A DNA stretch of 11,428 nucleotides from a bacterium (GTDB lineage: Bacteria > UBA9089 > CG2-30-40-21 > SBAY01), in assembly GCA_040757115.1 (NCBI GenBank), contig JBFLYA010000121.1, forward strand, positions 1 through 11,428, given 5' to 3'. Positions 2,374 to 11,300 of this stretch are shown in pieces. The notes under the pieces were generated by a model. The model saw only the letters and a program-made list of their open reading frames with translations. It was not told the DNA's origin and ran no database searches. Positions within the stretch are counted from its first letter, which is position 1; every line of letters starts with the position of its first letter. Made by a program: the position numbers and the translations under genes.

Positions 2374-2399
2374 TTTATTTCATTCACCTCCTTTAATTT

Positions 2400-2441
2400 G
2401 GTAATTGGTAACTGGTGAATAGTAATTAGTTACCAATTACC
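2400..2441. repeat. Inverted repeat of GGTAATT-type heptads
   Basis: The left arm 2400-2413 (GGTAATTGGTAACT) is a perfect 14-bp inverted match to 2428-2441. Read in 7-nt steps the stretch is GGTAATT, GGTAACT, GGTGAAT, AGTAATT, AGTTACC, so it is both a degenerate heptad tandem repeat and a hairpin with a 14-nt loop. There is no T-run on the transcribed (minus) strand, so it is not a standard terminator. It abuts the acpP Shine-Dalgarno and could form a stem in the fabG-acpP transcript. Confidence 0.8.
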
Positions 2442-2451
2442 AGTTTATAAG

Positions 2452-2608
2452 TTAATCTTCTTTCGTAAGATTGCTAAGTCTTTCAATAAACACTGTTGCA
2501 TTCTTCAAAGCCTCTTTTACAACAGGTGTCGAGCGTAGTGTCCCACGATGACTTACTCAATATCTCCTTAGCATTTTCTATAAATCTCATTGCTTCTTTT
2601 CTCTTCAT
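2452..2608 (-). pseudogene. Internally deleted, frameshifted small helical-protein remnant
   Basis: From an ATG at 2608 the first frame reads MKRKEAMRFIENAKEILSK and then runs into out-of-character sequence. From the middle onward a different frame gives LRSTPVVKEALKNATVFIE and on to a TAA at 2452-2454. The two halves look like the N- and C-termini of one short alpha-helical protein with the middle lost and the frame shifted. From memory the ends resemble the small DUF5618/HEPN-like proteins often scattered in candidate-phylum genomes, but I cannot confirm that. A functional product is unlikely. Confidence 0.5.
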
Positions 2609-2630
2609 AATGACTTTCCTCATTATTTAT

Positions 2631-2659
2631 AATCAGACAGAAATCAGATATCAGATTTT
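2631..2659. repeat. Short heptad array of CAGATAT type
   Basis: The units CAGAAAT, CAGATAT and CAGATTT follow one another at a 7-nt period, preceded by a related AATCAGA. The array separates two gene remnants and contains the stop codon of the chimeric ORF ending at 2658. No inverted partner of good quality was found nearby, so it may be a single surviving arm of a decayed cassette. Confidence 0.55.
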
Positions 2660-2831
2660 AAAGGATATATCTTAAATATCTGTCCTCTGTCTTATGTATT
2701 TCAATTGATGCCCCAATAATTTTTCTGTTATCTGATTTATTTCCATGTTTTCTCTGTTCCTCTGCGCCTCTGCGGTGAAGAGTTACAATTTCTCTTGCAT
2801 TTTGTAAATATTTTAAAGATTCTCTTTCCAT
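2658..2831 (-). pseudogene. Chimeric remnant: small-protein start fused to a GxxExxY cassette
   Basis: An open frame of 57 codons begins MERESLKYLQNAREI and then enters a cassette end (2770-2788) and the stretch HRRGAEEQRKHG, which is the translated CACCGCAGAGGCGCAGAG repeat. In a second frame, inside it, an ATG at about 2745 reads MEINQITEK. The first frame then supplies IIGASIEIHK. Together these match the remembered start of GxxExxY proteins with one base missing at the join. The related copy at 9747-9815 has the extra base, supporting a 1-nt deletion. The first 15 residues resemble the start of the 2452-2608 remnant, suggesting the GxxExxY cassette landed in a small helical-protein gene. 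Unlikely to be functional. Confidence 0.55.
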
Positions 2832-2862
2832 ACCTTTTGCCCTCTAACTTCTGTTTTCTATC

Positions 2863-3615
2863 CTACATTGCCATCCCACCGTCAACTACAATCACCTGAC
2901 CGGTGATATAAGACGCAGATGGTGAGACTAAAAATCCAACTGCATTAGCAATATCTTCAGGCTTACCATATCTTGCCAGTGGTATGTGTTCTAAATATTG
3001 TTTTTTTACCTCATCGGACAATTTAGAAGTCATTTCAGTTTCTATAAATCCTGGGGCTACCGCATTAACATTTATCCCTCTTTTTGCCAGTTCACGAGCC
3101 ACTGATTTAGTCAATCCAATAACCCCGGCTTTAGATGCCGAATAATTAACCTGACCGATATTCCCTTGTAGTCCTACGGTAGATGAGATATTAACTATTT
3201 TGCCTTCTCGTTGTTTAATCATCACCTTCGCTACTTCTTTAGTGCAGTTAAAAGTCCCAGTTAGATTAACATCTAAAACCGCTTTAAAATCTTCACAGGA
3301 CATACGAATAAGAAGTGTATCTTTTGTTATCCCGGCGTTATTAATAAGTATATTAATCTTGCCAAATTTGTCAAGCACAATTTGTACCATTTTTTCAACT
3401 TGCAAATTATCAGCCACATTAACCTTGAGACTCAATGTTTGAACATTAAATTTTTGTTTTAACTCATCAGCGGTTGCATTTGCCTGGTCAGAATTTATAT
3501 CCACGACTACAATCGAGGCGCCTGCATCGGCTAATGTCTCACAAATAGCCTTACCAATTCCCCTTGCTCCGCCAGTAACAATCGCTACTTGGTCTAATAA
3601 AATTCTTTCACACAT
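2863..3615 (-). CDS. fabG: 3-oxoacyl-ACP reductase (FabG)
   Basis: FabG is the NADPH-dependent short-chain dehydrogenase that reduces 3-ketoacyl-ACP in each elongation cycle. The 250-aa protein carries the Rossmann glycine motif TGGARGIG (14-21), NNAG (92-95), N117, the catalytic S145 in NISSTVG, and Y158/K162 in the YSASK motif. The C-terminus has the usual GQVIVVDGGMAM end. The chosen ATG has an AAGGTG ribosome binding site 7 nt upstream, and the protein starts close to its first beta strand as expected. The gene is complete, but both sides carry inserted material: remnants downstream, and a four-helix-bundle cassette upstream that separates it from fabD. Paralogous short-chain dehydrogenases exist, but the operon context makes FabG firm. 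Confidence 0.96.
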   Translation of the reverse strand: MCERILLDQVAIVTGGARGIGKAICETLADAGASIVVVDINSDQANATADELKQKFNVQTLSLKVNVADNLQVEKMVQIVLDKFGKINILINNAGITKDTLLIRMSCEDFKAVLDVNLTGTFNCTKEVAKVMIKQREGKIVNISSTVGLQGNIGQVNYSASKAGVIGLTKSVARELAKRGINVNAVAPGFIETEMTSKLSDEVKKQYLEHIPLARYGKPEDIANAVGFLVSPSASYITGQVIVVDGGMAM

Positions 3616-3645
3616 TTTCTTTCACCTTCTTTCCCTTGAAAATCG

Positions 3646-4118
3646 GTTTATAGTTTATAGTTGATAGTTTATAGTTTATGGTTTATAATGATTGTGATTT
3701 TGAAAGTTTAGAAAGCATCTTTGCTATATACTCTGAATCATTATAAAGTTCATTAAATAAATCATTTGTTAAATAATTATTATCTAAAGCAACAAATAAT
3801 TGAGATACTGTTTCATACAATGAACCGATAGAAATTTGGAGATATCGCTTAAAGTCAGTTTTACTAAATCTACTACTACCTTCAGCTATAGATGAAAGAA
3901 TAGATACAACACTTTTCCTCGTATGTTGAATTAATCCAAATTGCTCTTGTTTTGGATAAAATGAGGTAATTTCATAAATCCTTTTTAGAAATTTTCTTGT
4001 TTTCTGCCAAACTTCAAGTTTCTCAAAACTATACATCTTCTCCTCACATCAACTCTCAACTACCAACTATCAACTATAAACTATAAACTATCAACTATCT
4101 ACTATCTACTAAACTATC
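3646..4118. mobile_element. Putative cassette: TAGTTTA-heptad inverted repeats around a four-helix-bundle gene
   Basis: Left arm 3646-3687 and right arm about 4050-4118 are tandem arrays of 7-nt units (TAGTTTA, TAGTTGA, TGGTTTA) in opposite orientation. A perfect 21-bp inverted match pairs 3658-3678 with 4077-4097. Between them lies one small gene. The left boundary is followed on the minus strand by CCGATTTTC, nearly the same flank as at the ORF-less copy near 5042. The right arm runs into the end of fabD and contains its stop codon. No transposase is present, so movement would need help from outside. Boundaries are approximate because the arrays fade into flanking DNA. Confidence 0.65.
3683..4036 (-). 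CDS. Four-helix-bundle protein (S23/23S rRNA intervening-sequence family)
   Basis: This 117-aa all-helical protein shows the family signature: an N-terminal FEKLEVWQKTRKF, the central IAEGSSRFSKTDFKRYL (50-66), and ISIGSLYETVSQL (68-80). The family was first noticed inside 23S rRNA intervening sequences and includes the Avd accessory protein of diversity-generating retroelements. The biochemical role of stand-alone members is unknown. A GAGGAG ribosome binding site sits only about 3 nt before the ATG, which is tight but acceptable. The TAA stop is formed by the first bases of the flanking TAGTTTA array. The gene lies between fabD and fabG, to which it has no expected functional link, and looks like cargo of the surrounding repeat cassette. 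It has no frameshift, which suggests selection or recent arrival. Confidence 0.88.
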   Translation of the reverse strand: MYSFEKLEVWQKTRKFLKRIYEITSFYPKQEQFGLIQHTRKSVVSILSSIAEGSSRFSKTDFKRYLQISIGSLYETVSQLFVALDNNYLTNDLFNELYNDSEYIAKMLSKLSKSQSL

Positions 4119-5021
4119 CATATTCTCAACATTTTTAACCTCTACGGCTGAATCTATCCTTCTAATCAATCCCTTTAAAACCCTGCCTGGTCCTATTTCA
4201 ATAAAGGTATTTATCCCTTCGTTTATCATAAATCTCACGCTATCTTCCCATAGTACCGTGCAGGCAATCTGCTTTGTTAGAGATACCCTTATTTCATTCG
4301 GCTCTATTACTGGTTTTGCAGTAACATTGGCAATAATAGGTATCTGTGGAGTTCTAATCTCTACCGCAGACAATGCCCTGGCTAATTTTTCTTGAGCAGG
4401 TAACATATAACTTGAATGGAAGGCACCGTTTACGGCTAATGGAATTGCCTTTTTTGCCCCTGCTGACACTGCTTTTTGAGCGGCTTTTTCCAGATAGTCC
4501 TTCATTCCAGAGATGACAATCTGCCCCGGGCAATTAATATTGGCTATCTCTACGGATTCCTCCAGGCAAATTCGCTCTACCTCAGTCCTTTCCAATCCGA
4601 GGACAGCTATCATTCCTGTTGGATGTTTTTCTGCCTGCTCCTGCATAAATTGTGCCCTTTTCTGAACGATGCACACCGCCTCTTTAAATTCTATACCCCC
4701 AGCGGCAGCTAAGGCACTGTATTCCCCCAGACTATGGCCAGCCAGGTAAACAGGCAGTTGGCAGTAAGCAGTAGGCAATAAGATTTCTTTTAATACTTGT
4801 AGACAAGCGATGGTGGTGGTTAATATTGCAGGCTGAGAATATTGGGTTTGCGAGAGTTTTTCAATCACACCTTCAAAACATAACTTTGTCTGGGGATAAC
4901 CTAAGACCGCATCTGCCTGGTCAAAAATTTCCTTTGCAGATTTAAAATTCTGATAGAATTCATAGCCCATACCTACATATTGTGAGCCCTGTCCTGGGAA
5001 AACATACGCTATTTTTTTCAC
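4095..5021 (-). CDS. fabD: Malonyl-CoA:ACP transacylase (FabD)
   Basis: FabD transfers malonyl groups from CoA to ACP. The 308-aa protein has the N-terminal FPGQGSQ (8-14, oxyanion Q11), the nucleophile S97 in GHSLGEYSAL, R122 in KRAQFMQ, and H202 in GAFHSSYM. The start is GTG, chosen because MKKIAYVFPGQGSQ matches the family start and AAGGA lies 7 nt upstream. Two oddities involve repeats. Residues about 80-90 (ILLPTAYCQLP) replace the usual short loop before the active serine and are encoded by a GGCAGTA-type heptad array. The last residues (roughly VDSR) and the stop are encoded by the inverted-repeat arm of the neighbouring cassette. Core catalytic residues are all present, so the enzyme is probably active. 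ORF-less repeat DNA separates it from fabH. Confidence 0.95.
   Translation of the reverse strand: MKKIAYVFPGQGSQYVGMGYEFYQNFKSAKEIFDQADAVLGYPQTKLCFEGVIEKLSQTQYSQPAILTTTIACLQVLKEILLPTAYCQLPVYLAGHSLGEYSALAAAGGIEFKEAVCIVQKRAQFMQEQAEKHPTGMIAVLGLERTEVERICLEESVEIANINCPGQIVISGMKDYLEKAAQKAVSAGAKKAIPLAVNGAFHSSYMLPAQEKLARALSAVEIRTPQIPIIANVTAKPVIEPNEIRVSLTKQIACTVLWEDSVRFMINEGINTFIEIGPGRVLKGLIRRIDSAVEVKNVENMDSLVDSR
4753..4779. repeat. GGCAGTA-type heptad array inside fabD
   Basis: The plus strand reads GGCAGTT, GGCAGTA, AGCAGTA, GGCAATA in 7-nt steps. The array lies within the fabD coding frame just before the active-site GHSLG motif and is read as part of PTAYCQLP. Compared with remembered FabD sequences the loop here is a few residues longer. 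This looks like a repeat insertion tolerated because it kept the frame. Confidence 0.6.
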
Positions 5022-5045
5022 TTATCAATCCTTATTCTGAAAAAT

Positions 5046-5158
5046 CGGTTATAGTTTATGGTTTATAGTTTATGGTTTATGGTTTATAGTTTATGGTTTA
5101 TAGTCCTTCAACTATAAACTATAAACTATAAACTATCAACTATCTACTATCAACTATC
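5046..5158. repeat. ORF-less TAGTTTA inverted-repeat hairpin (solo cassette, copy 1)
   Basis: About eight TAGTTTA/TGGTTTA heptads (5048-5104) are followed by the loop CCTTCA (5105-5110) and then by the reverse-complement array (5111-5158). The result is a long nearly perfect hairpin that nearly fills the fabH-fabD gap. Positions 5078-5121 are identical over 44 bp to 11117-11160. It has the same arms as the gene-carrying cassette at 3646-4118 but no gene, and CCGATTTTTC again follows the array on the fabD side. It begins a few nt after the fabH stop. It may affect read-through or stability of the fab transcript. Confidence 0.8.
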
Positions 5159-5165
5159 TCCCCTT

Positions 5166-6161
5166 TTAAAATCGAATGACTGTTCCTGCCCAACAAAGTC
5201 CGCCACCAAAAGAGCTTAATAAAACAATATCGCCCTTTTTTATTCTACCTTGTTTTTTTGCTTCATCGATAGAGACAGCCGTAGAAGCCGCAGACATATT
5301 ACCATATTTATGTAAATTCACAAAAACTTTGTCTGGACCAATATGAAGTCGTTTATCTACAGCTTCAATGATACGGATATTAGCCTGATGTGGAATGAAT
5401 AAATCTACCTCACTAACATCTAAATGAGCCAGATGTAATGCCTTTCTTGCAGATTTACACATTGCATCAACGGCATATTTGAATACCTCTCTACCATTCA
5501 TTTTGATATAATGGAATCTTTCGTCTATAATTTTTTGAGAGATAGGGTTTCTGCTGCCGCCACCAGGAATTTGCAATTTATCAGTTTTGGAACCATCAGC
5601 CCCTAAGTAACTACTAAGGATTCCAGTTCCTTTTCGGACTGGTTGTAACACGACTGCTCCAGCCCCATCACCAAATAAAACACAGGTATTACGGTCTGTC
5701 CAATCGGTAATTTTAGTAAGGCAATCTGCGGCAATAACCAAAACAGTCTTATAGGTATGGGTAGCAATTAGATTTTTGGCTAATTCTAAGGCATAACTAA
5801 ACCCGGCACAGGCGGCGGATAAATCAAAACAGGCGGCATGAATCGCCCCTATTTTATGCTGAATAAAACAAGCAGTAGATGGAAAAAGCATATCCGGAGT
5901 AACGGTGGCGACAATAATCATTTCTACCTTTGAAGGATGAACTTTTGCATCTTCCAGAGCGGCTAATGCGGCTGGAACGGCTAAATCCGAAGATGCCTGA
6001 TTATCTTCAGCAATCCGTCGCTCACTTATGCCACTCCTTGTTCGTATCCACTCATCTGAAGTATCAACCATTTTCTCAAGGTCAAAATTAGTCAATACTT
6101 TAGAAGGTGTATAAGAACCTGTGCCAACTATACCTACTGCCCTTAATTCATCTTTTTTCAT
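5166..6161 (-). CDS. fabH: Beta-ketoacyl-ACP synthase III (FabH)
   Basis: FabH starts fatty-acid synthesis by condensing an acyl-CoA primer with malonyl-ACP. The 331-aa length is typical. The catalytic triad is visible as C118 in SAACAGF, H258 in IPHQANIRI, and N288 in KYGNMSAAS. The N-terminal GTGSYTP and TSDEWI motifs and the C-terminal SSFGGGLCWAG are also present. The ATG follows the plsX stop with no gap, and a GAGGGA ribosome binding site lies within the last plsX codons, so the two are translationally coupled. The TTT-TAA end is intact and the solo hairpin begins just after it. Primer choice (acetyl or branched) cannot be read from the sequence. Confidence 0.97.
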   Translation of the reverse strand: MKKDELRAVGIVGTGSYTPSKVLTNFDLEKMVDTSDEWIRTRSGISERRIAEDNQASSDLAVPAALAALEDAKVHPSKVEMIIVATVTPDMLFPSTACFIQHKIGAIHAACFDLSAACAGFSYALELAKNLIATHTYKTVLVIAADCLTKITDWTDRNTCVLFGDGAGAVVLQPVRKGTGILSSYLGADGSKTDKLQIPGGGSRNPISQKIIDERFHYIKMNGREVFKYAVDAMCKSARKALHLAHLDVSEVDLFIPHQANIRIIEAVDKRLHIGPDKVFVNLHKYGNMSAASTAVSIDEAKKQGRIKKGDIVLLSSFGGGLCWAGTVIRF

Positions 6162-7157
6162 CTATCCCTCTTTAATTCCTTTTTCGATATGAAGATTGAC
6201 TTGATGGTTAATAAATTCGCAAGCTACCCTGATTCCATTCTTTACTGCCTTCGGAGAAGAAGCACCATGACAAATAATACACACACCATCTATGCCTAAA
6301 AGTGGTGCTCCGCCATATTCTGAATAATCAACTAATTTTTTAAACTTTTTAAATGCAGGTTTAGAAAGAAAAGCACCAATCTTCAAACTGAGACTTTTAG
6401 ATAATTCCTGTTTTAAAAAGCTAATTATCATTTCGGCTAAACTTTCACCAAATTTTAAAACCACATTACCCACAAATCCATCACAGACAATTACATCTAC
6501 CGTGCCATTTATAATATCTCTTCCTTCAACATTGCCGATAAAATTTAGAGAAGAGTGTTTTAGCAGGTCAAATGTCTGAGAAGTAAGTGTATTCCCTTTA
6601 CCTTCTTCTTCCCCAATACTTAAAAGTCCTATTTTAGGATTGGGCTTTCCCATAATATCTTTGGCATAGACATTACCCATTATGGCAAATTGTAAGAGAT
6701 GTTGTGGTTTGCAGTCAACATTAGCGCCCACATCAAGAAGTATGGATGCTCCGGATAAAGTCGGAATAAGTGTTGCAATTGCAGGTCTAAAAATACCTTT
6801 TAGTCTGCCAGGATACATTAAAGCACCTGCCATTACCGCGCCAGTATTACCTGCTGAAATAAAGGCATCTACCTCACCTTGTTTTAATGCCTTTATCGCG
6901 ACAACAATTGAAGAATCTTTTTTAGTTTTAACTGCTTGTGCCGGAGATTCATGCATTTCAATAATTTCTTTTGTATCCCTGATGACAATTGGTAATCCTT
7001 TTGTTTGATAACGAGCCAATTCATTAGTAATTGCCTTTTCTTGACCAAATAAGGTTATTTGAGTTACTTCTTTTAACTCATTCAATGCCTCAACCACACC
7101 AGCTACAATAGACTGTGGTGCATGGTCTCCGCCCATAGCATCAACTGCAATACGCAT
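6162..7157 (-). CDS. plsX: Phosphate acyltransferase (PlsX)
   Basis: PlsX is a peripheral membrane enzyme that converts acyl-ACP to acyl-phosphate, the donor used by PlsY to make lysophosphatidate. The 331-aa protein has the family landmarks in order: VDAMGGDHAP (5-14), ISAGNTGA (100-107), LLDVGAN (140-146), CDGFVGNV (225-232) and the C-terminal HGAS (297-300). It starts one base after the rpmF stop and abuts fabH. The compact rpmF-plsX-fabH order is conserved widely and links phospholipid and fatty-acid synthesis. No missing motif and no repeat inside the gene. Confidence 0.97.
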   Translation of the reverse strand: MRIAVDAMGGDHAPQSIVAGVVEALNELKEVTQITLFGQEKAITNELARYQTKGLPIVIRDTKEIIEMHESPAQAVKTKKDSSIVVAIKALKQGEVDAFISAGNTGAVMAGALMYPGRLKGIFRPAIATLIPTLSGASILLDVGANVDCKPQHLLQFAIMGNVYAKDIMGKPNPKIGLLSIGEEEGKGNTLTSQTFDLLKHSSLNFIGNVEGRDIINGTVDVIVCDGFVGNVVLKFGESLAEMIISFLKQELSKSLSLKIGAFLSKPAFKKFKKLVDYSEYGGAPLLGIDGVCIICHGASSPKAVKNGIRVACEFINHQVNLHIEKGIKEG

Positions 7158-7158
7158 T

Positions 7159-7347
7159 TTATTTTTTCTTTTCCTCTATTGTTAATACAACGCGGCCGTT
7201 GTAAAAACCACAATTTAAACAAATACGATGAGGTAATTTTGGTTGTCCACATTGGGAACAGGTAGAAATATCTACTGGTGTTATTTTCCAGTGACTTCTT
7301 CTTTTATCTCGTTTTGCCTTTGATGTTTGTCGTTTTGGATTAGCCAT
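7159..7347 (-). CDS. rpmF: 50S ribosomal protein L32 (zinc-binding form)
   Basis: This 62-aa basic protein is a component of the large ribosomal subunit. It begins MANPKRQTSKAKRDKRRSHW, the standard L32 start, and has two CxxC pairs (C30/C33 and C43/C46) forming a zinc ribbon. This is the C+ form rather than the cysteine-free variant some bacteria use under zinc limitation. A strong AAAAGGAGG ribosome binding site precedes the ATG. Normally rpmF follows yceD directly; here a four-helix-bundle cassette of about 420 bp separates them. Its stop is one base from the plsX start. Confidence 0.97.
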   Translation of the reverse strand: MANPKRQTSKAKRDKRRSHWKITPVDISTCSQCGQPKLPHRICLNCGFYNGRVVLTIEEKKK

Positions 7348-7369
7348 TTTTTAAAACCTCCTTTTAGAA

Positions 7370-7792
7370 GTAGTCAGTAGTCAGTAGTTAGTCGTAAACT
7401 TTACTAACCAATGTATATAACATCGCTTGTATTTCATCTAATTGTGCTACTCTCTTATTGATTATTTCTGCAGGTAAAAATTTTGTGCATCTGATATATC
7501 TACCTTTACTTTCACCTGCTGACCCACGCGAAATCCTAAAAAATTGTTTCAGTTCTTTACCTGCTTTACGACCATAACCTTCTTCCATATTAGCACAAAT
7601 GGAATCAAGGCTTCTAATTTGTTGTCTTGCCAATTCTTTCCCAGCAAAATTTTCACTCAAAACTGGTAAATCTTCTTTTATAAATTCGTCAAACAATTTC
7701 ATTGCTTTCTGATAGACAATAAAATCTTCTACACTTTTAACTTTTATTTTGTTCTCCATTTTTCCTTACTCTCTCTACTGACTACTGACTAC
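7370..7792. mobile_element. Putative cassette: perfect 18-bp GTAGTCA inverted repeats around a four-helix-bundle gene
   Basis: GTAGTCAGTAGTCAGTAG at 7370-7387 is the exact reverse complement of 7775-7792. Each arm is a tandem of 7-nt units. The 423-bp span contains one gene and little else: the ORF stop begins at 7388, the base after the left arm. The right arm supplies the last codons and stop of yceD, so arrival of the cassette probably truncated that gene. The arm sequence differs completely from the TAGTTTA cassettes while the layout is the same. No transposase and no clear target-site duplication seen. Confidence 0.7.
7388..7759 (-). CDS. Four-helix-bundle protein (S23/23S rRNA intervening-sequence family)
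   Basis: This 123-aa helical protein belongs to the same broad family as the gene at 3683-4036 but to another branch. The conserved centre reads ICANMEEGYGRKAGKELKQF (54-73), followed by FRISRGSAGESKGRYIRC (74-91); the family's usual IAEG is altered to MEEG. An AAGG ribosome binding site lies 4 nt before the ATG. Function of stand-alone members is unknown. It sits between yceD and rpmF, a pair normally adjacent, and fills its inverted-repeat cassette wall to wall. The low identity to the other copy by eye means the two cassettes are not recent duplicates of each other. Confidence 0.87.
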   Translation of the reverse strand: MENKIKVKSVEDFIVYQKAMKLFDEFIKEDLPVLSENFAGKELARQQIRSLDSICANMEEGYGRKAGKELKQFFRISRGSAGESKGRYIRCTKFLPAEIINKRVAQLDEIQAMLYTLVSKVYD

Positions 7793-8258
7793 ATGTAGTT
7801 TTATTCAAATTTACGCCGCAATGACTACACAATCCCTGACAGTTTTCTTGACAAATTGGTTTTATCGGTAACGATAATATTATTTGCTCTCGAATTTGTT
7901 CCATTAAATTAATATTATCCTGGCGATAAAAAATCCTTTCTATGTCCTCTACTTGTAATTCTCCTCCATAATCTTCTGTTTTTTCACATTTGGTTTCGTA
8001 TAAATCTATTTTAAAATCCCGGTTTAATTTAAAATTAAAATCTTCAAGACAACGACTGCATTGAAGCAGAACATCAACTTTTAAATTACCTCTAAGTCTA
8101 ATACTCTCACCGATATTAACTAAATGGAATTTAATAGAAATAGGAGAGGTAAGTTTTATGTCTTCAATTGTGTCAAGAGATTCATCTTGTTCAATAAAGA
8201 GTTCACTGCCGATATTTTGTTTTATTTTAGAGATGTCAACACTAACTAAATCAATCAT
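7782..8258 (-). CDS. yceD: YceD/DUF177 family protein, C-terminus cut by cassette
   Basis: The YceD (DUF177) family is linked to 23S rRNA/large-subunit maturation and almost always sits before rpmF. The 158-aa protein keeps the first cysteine pair, CSRC (67-70), and the second cluster C136, C140, C144, C147 ending in CGVNLN. Family members then usually run on to a DPR..AL-type tail. Here the frame goes into the GTAGTCA repeat as TTCSQ and stops, so roughly 10-20 residues are missing. No Shine-Dalgarno is evident before the ATG: the upstream bases belong to a repeat-like GGTGTTATCTGGTGGTGT stretch. It may be poorly translated or partly impaired. It is the first gene after the strong promoter at 8592-8620. 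Confidence 0.88.
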   Translation of the reverse strand: MIDLVSVDISKIKQNIGSELFIEQDESLDTIEDIKLTSPISIKFHLVNIGESIRLRGNLKVDVLLQCSRCLEDFNFKLNRDFKIDLYETKCEKTEDYGGELQVEDIERIFYRQDNINLMEQIREQIILSLPIKPICQENCQGLCSHCGVNLNKTTCSQ

Positions 8259-8309
8259 TTTTTATGGTGTTATCTGGTGGTGTCTTAATCTAGCATAAAG
8301 GTTGAAATA

Positions 8310-8428
8310 GTGTAAGAAAAGGAGATATGGGGATTATGGAGATTAGAAGATAAATTTATTCTAAAATTTTGGAAATTACAATGAATAATCTCCCTATCTC
8401 CCTTTATCTCCTTATCCCTTTTTTACAC
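8310..8428. repeat. Inverted repeat of GGAGATA-type units in the operon leader
   Basis: The left arm 8310-8346 begins GTGTAAGAAAAGGAGATA and contains GGAGAT/GGGGAT units every 8-9 nt. The right arm 8385-8428 is its imperfect reverse complement, ending CCCTTTTTTACAC. The internal segment is under 40 bp and AT-rich with no ORF. The layout matches the other cassette arms in the window, with yet another unit sequence, so I read it as an emptied cassette. In the transcript it would form a long imperfect stem. Confidence 0.65.
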
Positions 8429-8588
8429 CAAATCTGCATAGATTTCGCTATTAGCGTTATTTTCAAACACCACCTGTTATCTCCAATTCAGATTTAATTT
8501 ACAGAGCCGTTACAGGTGACGAATCAATAATTGTCGTAAACTGTGAAAAACATTGGTAACTGATTACCAGCTATCACCTAATCAGGAA

Positions 8589-8599
8589 TGTATCATACA
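8589..8599. promoter_or_regulatory. Operator-like palindrome over the -10 box
   Basis: TGTATCATACA is a perfect 5-bp inverted repeat with a one-base centre, and it covers the -10 box of the promoter. A repressor bound here would block initiation. It does not match the FapR site as I remember it, and such a short AT-rich palindrome may be chance. Confidence 0.25.
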
Positions 8600-8620
8600 C
8601 TATTTTTATTTTTATGTCAA
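8592..8620 (-). promoter_or_regulatory. Near-consensus sigma70 promoter for yceD and the fab cluster
   Basis: Minus strand: a perfect TTGACA (8615-8620), exactly 17 nt, then TATGAT (8592-8597), one mismatch from TATAAT. The -35 hexamer is the last two sense codons of the isocitrate dehydrogenase gene, and the stop codon lies directly inside the spacer. Predicted start is near 8585. No other promoter this close to consensus was seen before the end of the cluster, so it likely drives all genes from yceD to rnc. Confidence 0.78.
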
Positions 8621-9622
8621 GGGAATTTTTTGAATGATAGATTTAGTCATCTGGGAGGTTGTTGAGGAACCACCTAAATCATAGGTAAGTGTTTTCCCTT
8701 CTTTAATCACCAAACCCACTGCGTTCACAATTTTTTTAGCCGCCTCTTTCTCTCCTAAATATTCAAGCATCATTGCCCCGGATAAAATACAGGCACAGGG
8801 ATTAATTTTATCTTGACCGGCATATTTAGGTGCTGAGCCATGGACAGGCTCAAAAACTGCCACACCATCTCCTATATTTGCCGAAGGGGCTAATCCTAAT
8901 CCGCCGATTAAACCGGCACATAAATCAGAAAGAATATCTCCAAACAGATTAGTCGTAACCAAGACATCATATTCCTCTGGTTTTTTCACCAATTGCATAG
9001 CCATATTATCTACAATTTTATCTTCAAATGCTATCTGGGGATATTGTTTTGCTACTTCCCTTGCCGTTTCTAAAAATAACCCACAGGTAACCTTTAAAAT
9101 GTTAGCTTTATGAATACAGGTAACCTTTTTGCGGTTATGGGCAATGGCATATTCAAAAGCAAATTTGACAATTCGTTCACTGGCTTTTTTTGAAATCACC
9201 CGAATACTTTCACCAATAGTTTTCTCTTGGTTAATGAAATGTTCGATTCCAGAATATAATCCTTGTGTATTTTCTCTAATCATCACCAGGTCGATATTTT
9301 CATATCGGCTGGGAGCTCCAACAAAAGAAACAGCTGGTCTAACCCCCGCATAGAGATTTAGTTCTTGTCTTAAAACAACATTAATACTTCTAAATCCATA
9401 GCCAACTGGGGTAGAAGTAGGTCCTTTTATGGCTACTTTGTTTTTTCTAATCGAGTCTAAAACCGCGGCAGGTAATGGTGTTTTTTCTTTCTCTAAAGCA
9501 CACTCACCGGCTAAAACCTTTTCAAATTTAATGTCAACACCAGTGGCAGACACCACATTCACCATTGCCTCAGTTATTTCTGGTCCTATCCCATCACCTG
9601 GGATTAAAGTTACATTATACAT
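8612..9622 (-). CDS. icd: Isocitrate dehydrogenase, short NAD-IDH/IDH3-like form
   Basis: It oxidatively decarboxylates isocitrate to 2-oxoglutarate. The 336-aa protein belongs to the isocitrate/isopropylmalate dehydrogenase family: IPGDGIGPE (7-15), substrate residues S79, N81, R85 (FRSINVVLR), R95, R116 and Y123 in [11 protein letters not shown]172, and metal aspartates D205, D229 and D233 in NLFGDILSD. The FRSIN serine and GLYSGIEH favour isocitrate over isopropylmalate; overall it resembles mitochondrial IDH3 alpha. The cofactor loop [15 protein letters not shown] has the K and Y that bind the NADP phosphate in E. coli Icd, while the later arginine is replaced by glycine (LTYDLGG), so NAD versus NADP is open. 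Homoisocitrate or tartrate activity cannot be excluded. A GAGGGG ribosome binding site supports the ATG. Confidence 0.88.
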
Positions 9623-9654
9623 TGTTTTTTTCCCCTCTCTATAGTTTTGTAATT

Positions 9655-9837
9655 TTGTAACTGTTCACCGCAGAGACACAGAGACGCAGAGAAAAAAATT
9701 AAAATCTATGGACGAGACGTAAACAGCTCATATATATTTCCATGTCTGCCTCAATAATCTTTTATGTTATCTGATTTATTTCTATGTCTTCTCTGTTCCT
9801 CTGCGTCTCTGCGGTAAAGGACTACCTGAACGGTTAC
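9655..9837. mobile_element. Decayed GxxExxY-type cassette with CACCGCAGAG inverted ends
   Basis: The left end TTGTAACTGTTCACCGCAG (9655-9673) continues as CAGAGACA/CAGAGACG 8-nt units. The right end (9791-9837) carries the reverse array CTCTGCGTCTCTGCGGT and TGAACGGTTAC, an inverted 10-of-11 match to 9657-9667. The left end also matches, with one difference in 19, the reverse complement of 2770-2788, so this terminus is a shared element end rather than random sequence. Inside lies a gene remnant. It fills most of the 234-bp gap between pilT and icd. Confidence 0.68.
9737..9785 (-). pseudogene. GxxExxY-family N-terminal remnant
   Basis: The frame reads IEINQIT, a TAA stop, then KIIEADMEIY, matching the remembered GxxExxY start MEINxITEKIIGAxxEVH with the start codon mutated to ATA and the glutamate codon mutated to a stop. 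The aligned region at 2709-2776 shares the same bases upstream of the start and within the first codons. The rest of the gene is gone. Clearly non-functional. Confidence 0.6.
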
Positions 9838-9856
9838 CAAATTCTGCTAAATTAAG

Positions 9857-10966
9857 TTAATACTGCATATCCATTCCGCCAATAACTATCCCGCCACCGG
9901 CATGAGCTCCTTTAAGTCCCAGTCTTAAATCATCAGGATAAGGTGTGGCAGAAAGTGCCTCTTCTATTGTAACCAACCCAATATTAACAACTTTAGCAAT
10001 AGCCTGGTTTAAACTTTGCATCTGCCAATAGGTTGTGGAAGATTCAATCACCTTACGGATACCGGATGTATTTCCTTTTTCGATTAAATCCTTGATTAAA
10101 GGAGAATTAATCATAATTTCAACTGCGGCAATTCTACCTTTTTCATCTTTTCTCCGCAATAATCTTTGAGAAACTACACCCAGTAAAGTCAGAGATAATT
10201 GAATTCTAACCTGGGTTTGCTGAGAAGTCGGAAAAACATCAATGATACGGTCAATTGTTTGTGTGGCATCATTAGTGTGAAGTGTTGATAAAACCAGATG
10301 ACCGGTTTCAGCGGCACTCAGCGCGGTAGACATTGTCTCAATATCACGCATCTCACCGATTAAAAGCACATCCGGGTCCTGACGAAGTGCTCGCCGTAAT
10401 GCCTCACGAAAACTTTTCGTATCAACATCTAATTCGCGTTGGTCAATCGTGCTTTTATCATCACGATGTAAAAATTCTATTGGGTCTTCTATGGTAATTA
10501 TGTGACAATTACGATTTTTATTAACAAAACCCACCATTGCCGCTAATGTTGTGGATTTTCCACTTCCAGTAGGCCCGGTGACTAATATCAACCCTTGTGG
10601 TTTGGCAACTAAATTTTTTATAACAGGTGGTAAGCCTAATTGCTCTACAGTCGGAATCTCGTAAGGAACAGCTCGAATAATACAACCTATCACACCACGC
10701 TGTTTAAACACATTTACCCTGAATCGAGCCACACCTGGTAAACTGTATGAAAAATCGATATCCAGATTCTCTACGAATTTCTTAATCTGCTCCTGATTCA
10801 TCATACTATAAACTAAATTCATCACATCCTCAGGACCAAGTTTTGGTAAATCAGTTGGGGTTAATATGCCCGCAATTCTAATAAGTGGAGGTCTGGCTAC
10901 CTTTAAATATAAATCAGATGCGTGTCGTTCTACTAACATCTTTAATAATTCTGGCATCTTTAACAT
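9857..10966 (-). CDS. pilT: Type IV pilus retraction ATPase (PilT)
   Basis: PilT is the hexameric cytoplasmic ATPase that depolymerises type IV pili, powering twitching motility and DNA uptake. The 369-aa protein has the PAS-like N-terminal domain, Walker A GPTGSGKST (131-139), acidic Asp-box residues around ITIEDPIEF (157-165), Walker B VLLIGEMRD (200-208), and the His box TGHLVLSTLHTND (221-233). The MxDxE-like GEMRDIET and PilT-style length separate it from the larger PilB/GspE ATPases, although PilU is a close alternative. The C-terminus ends in a glycine-rich tail and MDMQY. GGGAG lies about 11 nt before the first ATG; an in-frame ATG at codon 4 is a less favoured start. No other pilus gene is in the window. 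Confidence 0.93.
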   Translation of the reverse strand: MLKMPELLKMLVERHASDLYLKVARPPLIRIAGILTPTDLPKLGPEDVMNLVYSMMNQEQIKKFVENLDIDFSYSLPGVARFRVNVFKQRGVIGCIIRAVPYEIPTVEQLGLPPVIKNLVAKPQGLILVTGPTGSGKSTTLAAMVGFVNKNRNCHIITIEDPIEFLHRDDKSTIDQRELDVDTKSFREALRRALRQDPDVLLIGEMRDIETMSTALSAAETGHLVLSTLHTNDATQTIDRIIDVFPTSQQTQVRIQLSLTLLGVVSQRLLRRKDEKGRIAAVEIMINSPLIKDLIEKGNTSGIRKVIESSTTYWQMQSLNQAIAKVVNIGLVTIEEALSATPYPDDLRLGLKGAHAGGGIVIGGMDMQY

Positions 10967-11071
10967 TGTTTTTAATTCTCCCTTCTTAATTCATAGATTA
11001 GAGTTCTGCAAAACCAGGAAACTGTAGTTTTTAAGCGGGTATTTAAAACCTCTATTTTATCAATTCTCTCC

Positions 11072-11300
11072 AAATATCAAAATGCAAAACTCGTTTATAG
11101 TTTATAGTGTATAGTGTATGGTTTATAGTTTATGGTTTATAGTCCTTCAACTATAAACTATCTACTATCAACTATCAACTAAAAATTATCTCTTCCCTTT
11201 CAGCGTTAAAATACTTGAAGCAAAGATATTACCAATTTGAAATTTGATTTGTAATTTTGCATTTTGATATTTATATTTGATATTTGATATTTAATATTTA
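11072..11300. repeat. Outer inverted repeat with TTTGATA heptads enclosing the solo hairpin
   Basis: AAATATCAAAATGCAAAA (11072-11089) is the perfect 18-bp reverse complement of 11255-11272. The right arm continues to 11300 as TTTGATA/TTTATAT heptads. Between the arms lie the TAGTTTA solo hairpin and about 70 bp of unrecognised DNA. The arrangement suggests one repeat cassette inserted into another. Confidence 0.68.
11094..11182. repeat. ORF-less TAGTTTA inverted-repeat hairpin (solo cassette, copy 2)
   Basis: TAGTTTA/TAGTGTA/TGGTTTA heptads run to 11143, then the CCTTCA loop, then the reverse-complement array to about 11182. Its core (11117-11160) is identical over 44 bp to 5078-5121, including the loop. 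The left flank AACTCGTTTATAG echoes the AATCGGTTTATAG flank of the other copies. Confidence 0.8.

Follow-up and report, generated by a model that had tools for sequence, protein, structure and literature searches.

Two armed IVP genes in a fatty-acid operon

Contig C121 (11,428 bases; hereafter the window) belongs to a bacterial genome of 4.3 Mb in 462 contigs and carries a minus-strand fatty-acid operon in the order pilT, a leuB-like gene, yceD, IVP2, rpmF, plsX, fabH, fabD, IVP1, fabG, acpP, fabF, and rnc, some of these names having been assigned from the translated sequence together with gene order. Both small genes, IVP1 and IVP2, lie inside inverted arrays of 7-nucleotide (nt) tandem units and encode members of the 23S rRNA intervening-sequence protein (IVP) family PF05635. 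A reading of the letters alone (the original prediction) had proposed that unrelated repeat families share one architecture here, with heptamer units in inverted pairs. Our data show that such arms are tied to two protein families, IVP and GxxExxY, in many phyla, and that each family has its own arm period. The two cassettes consist of the following parts.

3683..4036, minus strand: IVP1, 23S_rRNA_IVP (four-helix bundle/S23), 117 aa, in the fabD-fabG gap (PF05635, E 2.2e-33; TIGR02436)
4048..4111, minus strand: IVP1 5' arm in operon sense, 7-nt array of ATAGTTG/TAGTTTA units (Tandem Repeats Finder [TRF] period 7, 9.1 copies; inverted pairs)
3646..3687, minus strand: IVP1 3' arm in operon sense, 7-nt TAGTTTA array (TRF period 7, 6 copies; inverted pairs)
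7388..7759, minus strand: IVP2, 23S_rRNA_IVP, 123 aa, in the yceD-rpmF gap; missing from this slot in the congener G001 (PF05635, E 6e-16; slot comparison)
7775..7795, minus strand: IVP2 5' arm of AGTAGTC units, running into the end of yceD
7369..7392, minus strand: IVP2 3' arm, AGTAGTC array

The IVP2 heptamer array also provides the yceD stop codon (window 7782-7795), and for this reason the last residues of yceD differ from those in G001.

Heptamer arrays across the genome

Array statistics were obtained from an 800-kb sample of the genome. The number of tandem arrays peaked sharply at a period of 7 nt (106 arrays), followed by 14 (23), 21 (20), and 8 nt (20), with no more than 11 arrays at any other period, while dinucleotide shuffles of the same sequence gave 0. 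The observation of 7-nt arrays is real and general. The 134 heptamer arrays fell into 46 unit families.

Inverted partners exceeded a permutation null in every gap class: 29 pairs had gaps of 0-60 bp where 1.1 were expected, 18 had gaps of 61-250 bp (expected 2.6), and 11 had gaps of 251-600 bp (expected 2.9). Neighbors in the same orientation were less enriched (3, 13, and 11 vs 1.9, 2.5, and 2.6 in the same gap classes). Most inverted pairs are therefore hairpins. Accordingly, the expectation of inverted partners a few hundred bp apart held only in part: pairing lies above that of permuted arrays, but tight hairpins predominate and many arrays have no partner. Strict pairing of high-scoring arrays only gave a weak signal (10 inverted vs 9 direct), whereas the sensitive scan with the permutation null was clear. 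The genes that could be identified inside wider pairs were IVP (7 nt) or GxxExxY (8-9 nt), and a few wider pairs hold no clear gene.

Inverted arms accompany IVP genes in many phyla

We collected IVP genes from the window genome (26 matches), its relatives, another phylum, 80 named loci of >20 phyla including archaea and the candidate phyla radiation (CPR), and plasmids. A gene was considered armed when its 5' flank matched the reverse complement of its own 3' flank with a score of at least 32. This analysis uncovered arms on 59% of 168 distinct IVP genes with both flanks, as compared with 0.4% of 1004 control open reading frames (ORFs) from the same loci; the rate was 0.5% when flanks were compared across elements. 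In an extended set, 103 of 176 distinct IVP genes were armed, the period being 7 nt in 86 of them, 8 in 10, 9 in 3, and 6 in 2; the named loci alone gave 7 nt in 32 and 8 nt in 5. On the IVP tree, periods other than 7 were modestly clustered (12 changes vs 14.9 after shuffling, with 6 of 300 shuffles as low).

The claim that unit sequence is not conserved while period and layout are kept was borne out across elements, although the sequence is not wholly free. When the 5' arm is read on the gene-sense strand, the dinucleotide AG occurs in 58 of 68 distinct IVP units, against an expectation of 42.5 (z 4.7), and the arm is purine-rich and C-poor. We also considered whether one arm mirrors the other in the order of its units and rejected this idea, which only 1 of 9 long cases fit.

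Plasmid IVP genes were concentrated in filamentous cyanobacteria, where they have inverted heptamer arms (AGTAGGG, ACAGGGA, GGTGACA, and GTGTAGG). The resemblance to the short tandemly repeated repetitive (STRR) heptanucleotides of these organisms, which had been pointed out in the original prediction, holds because the cyanobacterial plasmid S23/four-helix genes carry such arms; the plasmid IVP arms were compared by eye. Phages contain almost no IVP; the matches come from a single Bacillus phage with three records, one annotated as Avd.

The prevalence of heptamers by itself could have a more general cause. According to the summary of Mrazek et al. 2007 given in PMC4679880, among the long simple repeats of bacteria those with 7-nt units are the most frequent, and DNA polymerase contacts ~7 nt. 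Generic slippage would make heptamers commonest through this polymerase contact, with small genes adjacent by chance or by inserting into repeats, and both the heptamer excess known in many genomes and the fast change in unit copy number between congeners agree with it. We nevertheless regard slippage as quite improbable, given that it yields no inverted partner and that control ORFs of the same loci are so rarely armed (0.4% vs 59%). In addition, 7-, 14-, or 21-nt arrays occur at 50-214 per Mb in five genomes with IVP, while none of these were found in ~397 kb of four genomes with neither IVP nor GxxExxY, a comparison of nine genomes that is confounded by kinship. A further point against slippage is that GxxExxY genes of the same genomes have arms at 8-9 nt.

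Arm period correlates with the enclosed protein family

The GxxExxY family (PF13366, TIGR04256) gave 65 matches in the window genome. Among 62 distinct genes, 38 were armed, with periods of 8 (11 genes), 9 (16), 10 (3), and 11 nt (1), undefined in 7, and none at 7 nt. The 27 arms at 8-9 nt vs 0 at 7 nt differ from those of IVP with a Fisher p of 5e-18, a value that overstates the evidence because the arms are related in sequence and the copies therefore not fully independent. The pattern D-x(6-14)-E-x-K is kept in 59 of 61 near-full GxxExxY proteins, as expected for PD-(D/E)XK nucleases. Arm period hence correlates with the enclosed protein family, being 7 nt for IVP and 8-9 nt for GxxExxY. 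The earlier suggestion of a period tied to a protein or a replication step stands as far as the protein family is concerned; our analysis revealed no connection with replication.

In an unrelated bacterium, a GxxExxY gene occupies the fabD-fabG gap, i.e., the IVP1 slot (L332, Sphingomonas parapaucimobilis plasmid NZ_CP155749.1, 482097-484038).

ORF-less and decayed elements in the window

The remaining arrays of the window could be assigned as follows.

5045..5157, no strand: TAGTTTA inverted array (hairpin), ORF-less, in the fabH-fabD gap (arms 79-83% complementary; RNA fold z -7.3)
2398..2446, no strand: GGTAATT hairpin, ORF-less, upstream of acpP
10996..11300, minus strand: IVP element of L015 type, internally deleted (blastn to L015: 57 nt at 96% and 61 nt at 90%; ~290 nt of the gene gone)
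11093..11191, no strand: TAGTTTA hairpin, ORF-less, nested inside this decayed IVP element
4749..4777, minus strand: GGCAGTA heptamer array in frame within fabD (fabD alignment; other units in G002 and G003)
9657..9837, minus strand: decayed GxxExxY cassette with 8-nt inverted arms CGCAGAGA, within GTAAC..TTCA ends of a miniature inverted-repeat transposable element (MITE), recognized by a MEINQIT-like relic in the frames and by these ends
2638..2790, minus strand: decayed GxxExxY gene with a single 8-nt arm (2752-2779) and CAGATAT repeats beside it (2638-2656); frames read MEINQITEK...IIGASIEIHK
8321..8420, no strand: GGAGATA inverted array, ORF-less, 8-9 nt period, between the leuB-like gene and yceD

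All four unit families reported as inverted arms thus found a place: TAGTTTA and AGTAGTC bracket IVP1 and IVP2, respectively, GGTAATT forms a hairpin, and TTTGATA belongs to the deleted IVP element, in which it makes up the 5' arm (11235-11299, partner ~11069-11090), with the 3' end of the coding sequence at 11182-11238. The two arrays described as single, GGCAGTA and CAGATAT, lie inside fabD and beside the decayed GxxExxY gene. Arrays were said to bracket small genes, which applies to IVP1 and IVP2, but several are ORF-less hairpins. GGAGATA and CAGAGACG had been described as similar arrays with periods nearer 8; they do run at 8-9 nt, yet they are not a relaxed variant of the heptamer design, as the CAGAGACG arrays (9657-9837, and one arm at 2752-2779) are decayed GxxExxY cassettes. 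An Rfam search of the window returned no family matches.

Cassettes are exchanged at fixed slots

The cassettes behave like mobile DNA, as supported by slot comparisons with the congener G001, which is 90-98% identical to the window genome in the compared flanks. At the tRNA-Leu/gyrA slot, one congener has an ATTAGAG-armed IVP and the other a different, AGTTTAG-armed IVP, and the flanking bases are identical. A second slot displays the same IVP exchange, and at a third the gene is present in one genome and only the arms in the other. The yceD-rpmF slot of G001 holds a GGTAATT hairpin in place of IVP2. More distantly, the fab operons of relatives have hairpins of other units (GAAATTA, AAGGTTC, and GAATGTA) in the same gaps, and the unit of the in-frame fabD array likewise changes in another genus. 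Across two genomes, one IVP element occupies three unrelated positions. Together with the 8-bp duplications at MITE-carried arrays described below, these observations support the mobile character suggested in the original prediction.

In relatives (L106, G002:C111; L107, G003:C18), the fabH-fabD and fabD-fabG slots also host other foreign-looking genes, including a HicA/HicB-like pair and, in G002, frames resembling restriction-enzyme and DNA-methyltransferase genes.

IS66-type MITEs carry part of the arrays

IS66 elements are bounded by GTAA ends and duplicate 8 bp of target sequence. In the genus, we found 92 elements with GTAAC..TTCA ends, of which 37 have an exact target duplication of 8 bp and 2 one of 7 bp, with no other lengths and 0 of 276 in the control. 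Many of them hold 7-, 8-, or 10-nt arrays, and the best IS66 transposase match, which is decayed, sits between such ends. Part of the array load therefore moves as IS66-type MITE cargo. The MITE-ended window copy (9657..9837) has no exact target duplication.

One could extend this to all cassettes and regard arrays and small genes as passive cargo of IS66-type MITEs, the arms having no role of their own. The array-bearing elements with 8-bp duplications and the position of the transposase match favor such carriage, but GTAAC..TTCA ends are absent at IVP1 and IVP2, the main IVP cassettes of the window, and at the gyrA-slot cassettes. They are likewise absent from the rRNA copies at helix 45 (see below), and the arms recur with IVP in phyla that have other transposons. 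Overall, passive carriage appears rather unlikely as the general explanation.

Two further movers were considered and rejected. For RAYT, the genome contains six Y1_Tnp matches, none in the window, and no link to the cassettes was seen; RAYT/REPIN systems work alike in that a small gene goes with many dispersed non-autonomous hairpins, but the cassettes contain no HUH (Y1) transposase. For reverse transcriptase, the genome gave only two RVT_1 matches, both outside the window, and again no link was seen. Avd of diversity-generating retroelements (DGRs) is a distant IVP homologue (bAvd 27 bits, under the cut-off); unlike a DGR, the window has no reverse transcriptase, and template repeats were not searched for.

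Relationship to rRNA intervening sequences

At helix 45 of the 23S rRNA, the classic site of intervening sequences (IVSs), the window genome has an ORF-less inverted array of 9-nt AGTTTATAG-like units, and in other genera of the phylum the arrays at this site, likewise ORF-less, are built of different units, e.g., AGAGGAC (7 nt) in G002 and AGAGTCA-like units in G009 and G014. The IVS of Coxiella comprises an S23p ORF and a terminal stem and is excised by RNase III; three tandem GACAGAT heptamers, variable in number among strains, precede the ORF (PMC4990558). The anatomy of the window cassettes is thus common with that of rRNA IVSs. As in the 23S rRNA IVSs of Coxiella, Leptospira, and Brucella, an IVP-family protein lies in the loop of an inverted-repeat stem, and the window provides both PF05635 matches and terminal inverted repeats that can fold into such a stem. 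They differ in location, the window cassettes lying between protein genes and none in 23S rRNA, where ORF-less copies occur at helix 45 elsewhere. They differ further in that the arms are short-period arrays across phyla and that a second protein family has another period. The operon cassettes may be processed like rRNA IVSs.

Both families favor the sense orientation. The gene is on the same strand as its upstream neighbor in 123:32 cases for IVP and 39:10 for GxxExxY, and between tandem genes the co-directional cases number 78:15 and 28:2, respectively. This bias can result from insertion into transcribed sites or from selection for expression.

The arms might be only RNA stems for cutting by RNase III, in which case any repeat would suffice and 7 nt would have no special meaning. 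The sense bias, the strong operon-sense RNA folds (z -4.0, -7.3, and -6.1), and the excision of the Coxiella IVS, with its tandem GACAGAT heptamers at the 5' end, by RNase III (PMC4990558) speak for this explanation. However, it leaves the family-specific period without a reason, some cassettes are antisense to both neighbors (15 of 93 IVP cases between tandem genes), and wobble is not favored among the arm mismatches (93 of G.U type vs 134 of A.C type). We consider it unlikely. With no G.U excess, selection on the stem at the RNA level, which we also considered, is unsupported.

Proposed mechanism

The reading that we find reasonably probable is that these are IVS-like selfish cassettes, in which a small gene lies in the loop of two inverted short-period arrays and its protein sets the arm period. 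Each cassette consists of a stem loop with a gene for an IVP four-helix protein or a GxxExxY (PD-(D/E)XK-type) protein, mostly sense-oriented in transcribed slots, i.e., between operon genes, beside a tRNA, or in 23S rRNA helix 45. The cassette's own protein or an associated partner may read or copy the arms in fixed steps of 7 nt for IVP and 8-9 nt for GxxExxY. We propose that the period is conserved while the sequence drifts by slippage because the protein or its partner measures steps of fixed length. As in rRNA IVSs, pairing of the arms would mark the cassette to be processed and moved.

Several observations weigh against this reading. No detectable arms are present on 41% of IVP genes, many arrays of the genome are single, unit order is mirrored between the arms in 1 of 9 long cases, and wobble pairs are not preferred. 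GxxExxY arms often share sequence (CGCAGAG..), the cross-element null reaching 5%, and their period may be partly inherited. Furthermore, kinship confounds the nine-genome comparison of array density, and a causal role of the protein in setting the period is suggested by a correlation.

We tentatively postulate a broader, less probable principle, that recognition is by step length and not by sequence. Each small family (IVP, GxxExxY, and perhaps more) would read or write inverted arrays of its own period, so that arms work even after full sequence change, and STRRs and rRNA IVSs would be products of one such kind of element. If true, such elements would recognize themselves in an unusual manner, by a period that goes with the protein and is kept as the sequence changes.

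Such a link would join three puzzles treated separately so far, namely bacterial heptanucleotide repeats, the S23/four-helix-bundle and GxxExxY orphan families, which are widely annotated without function, and rRNA intervening sequences. Several bacterial repeats that have long lacked an explanation would then trace to a single type of mobile cassette. The window genome has many copies of intergenic tandem 7-nt units, as do genomes with cyanobacterial STRRs or with the GGGAATC repeats of Xanthomonas (PMC4692102), and here too the unit varies by organism. Inverted GGGAATC pairs are on record, and their authors drew no tie to a mobile element (PMC4692102); unlike our cassettes, STRR and GGGAATC repeats have been tied to no gene and no mobile element in earlier reports. 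IVP has been described in CPR rRNA inserts (PMC11270868). In the open-licence literature, subscription papers being outside the search, we did not find inverted arrays tied to IVP across phyla, the GxxExxY counterpart, or cassette exchange.

Additional IVP loci

IVP genes in cas loci were noted earlier, in a passage that makes no mention of arms (PMC3936711). In the window genome, two IVP cassettes with CGGGACT and GCAGAGA arms (L001, G000:C42 near 6810, and L006, G000:C7 near 38447) adjoin the CRISPR-like repeat ACCTGATGAATAAGGGATTGCGA, and contig C42 of L001 also has a 955-aa reverse-transcriptase frame. Another IVP gene, present in two copies (L012, G000:C6; L013, G000:C222), is bounded by terminal inverted repeats ACCCTACAACG and thus represents yet another type of carrier element. 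Finally, the distant genome G026 has 19 IVP matches, many of them short and paired head to head at a distance of a few hundred bases (e.g., C7:104028-104554).

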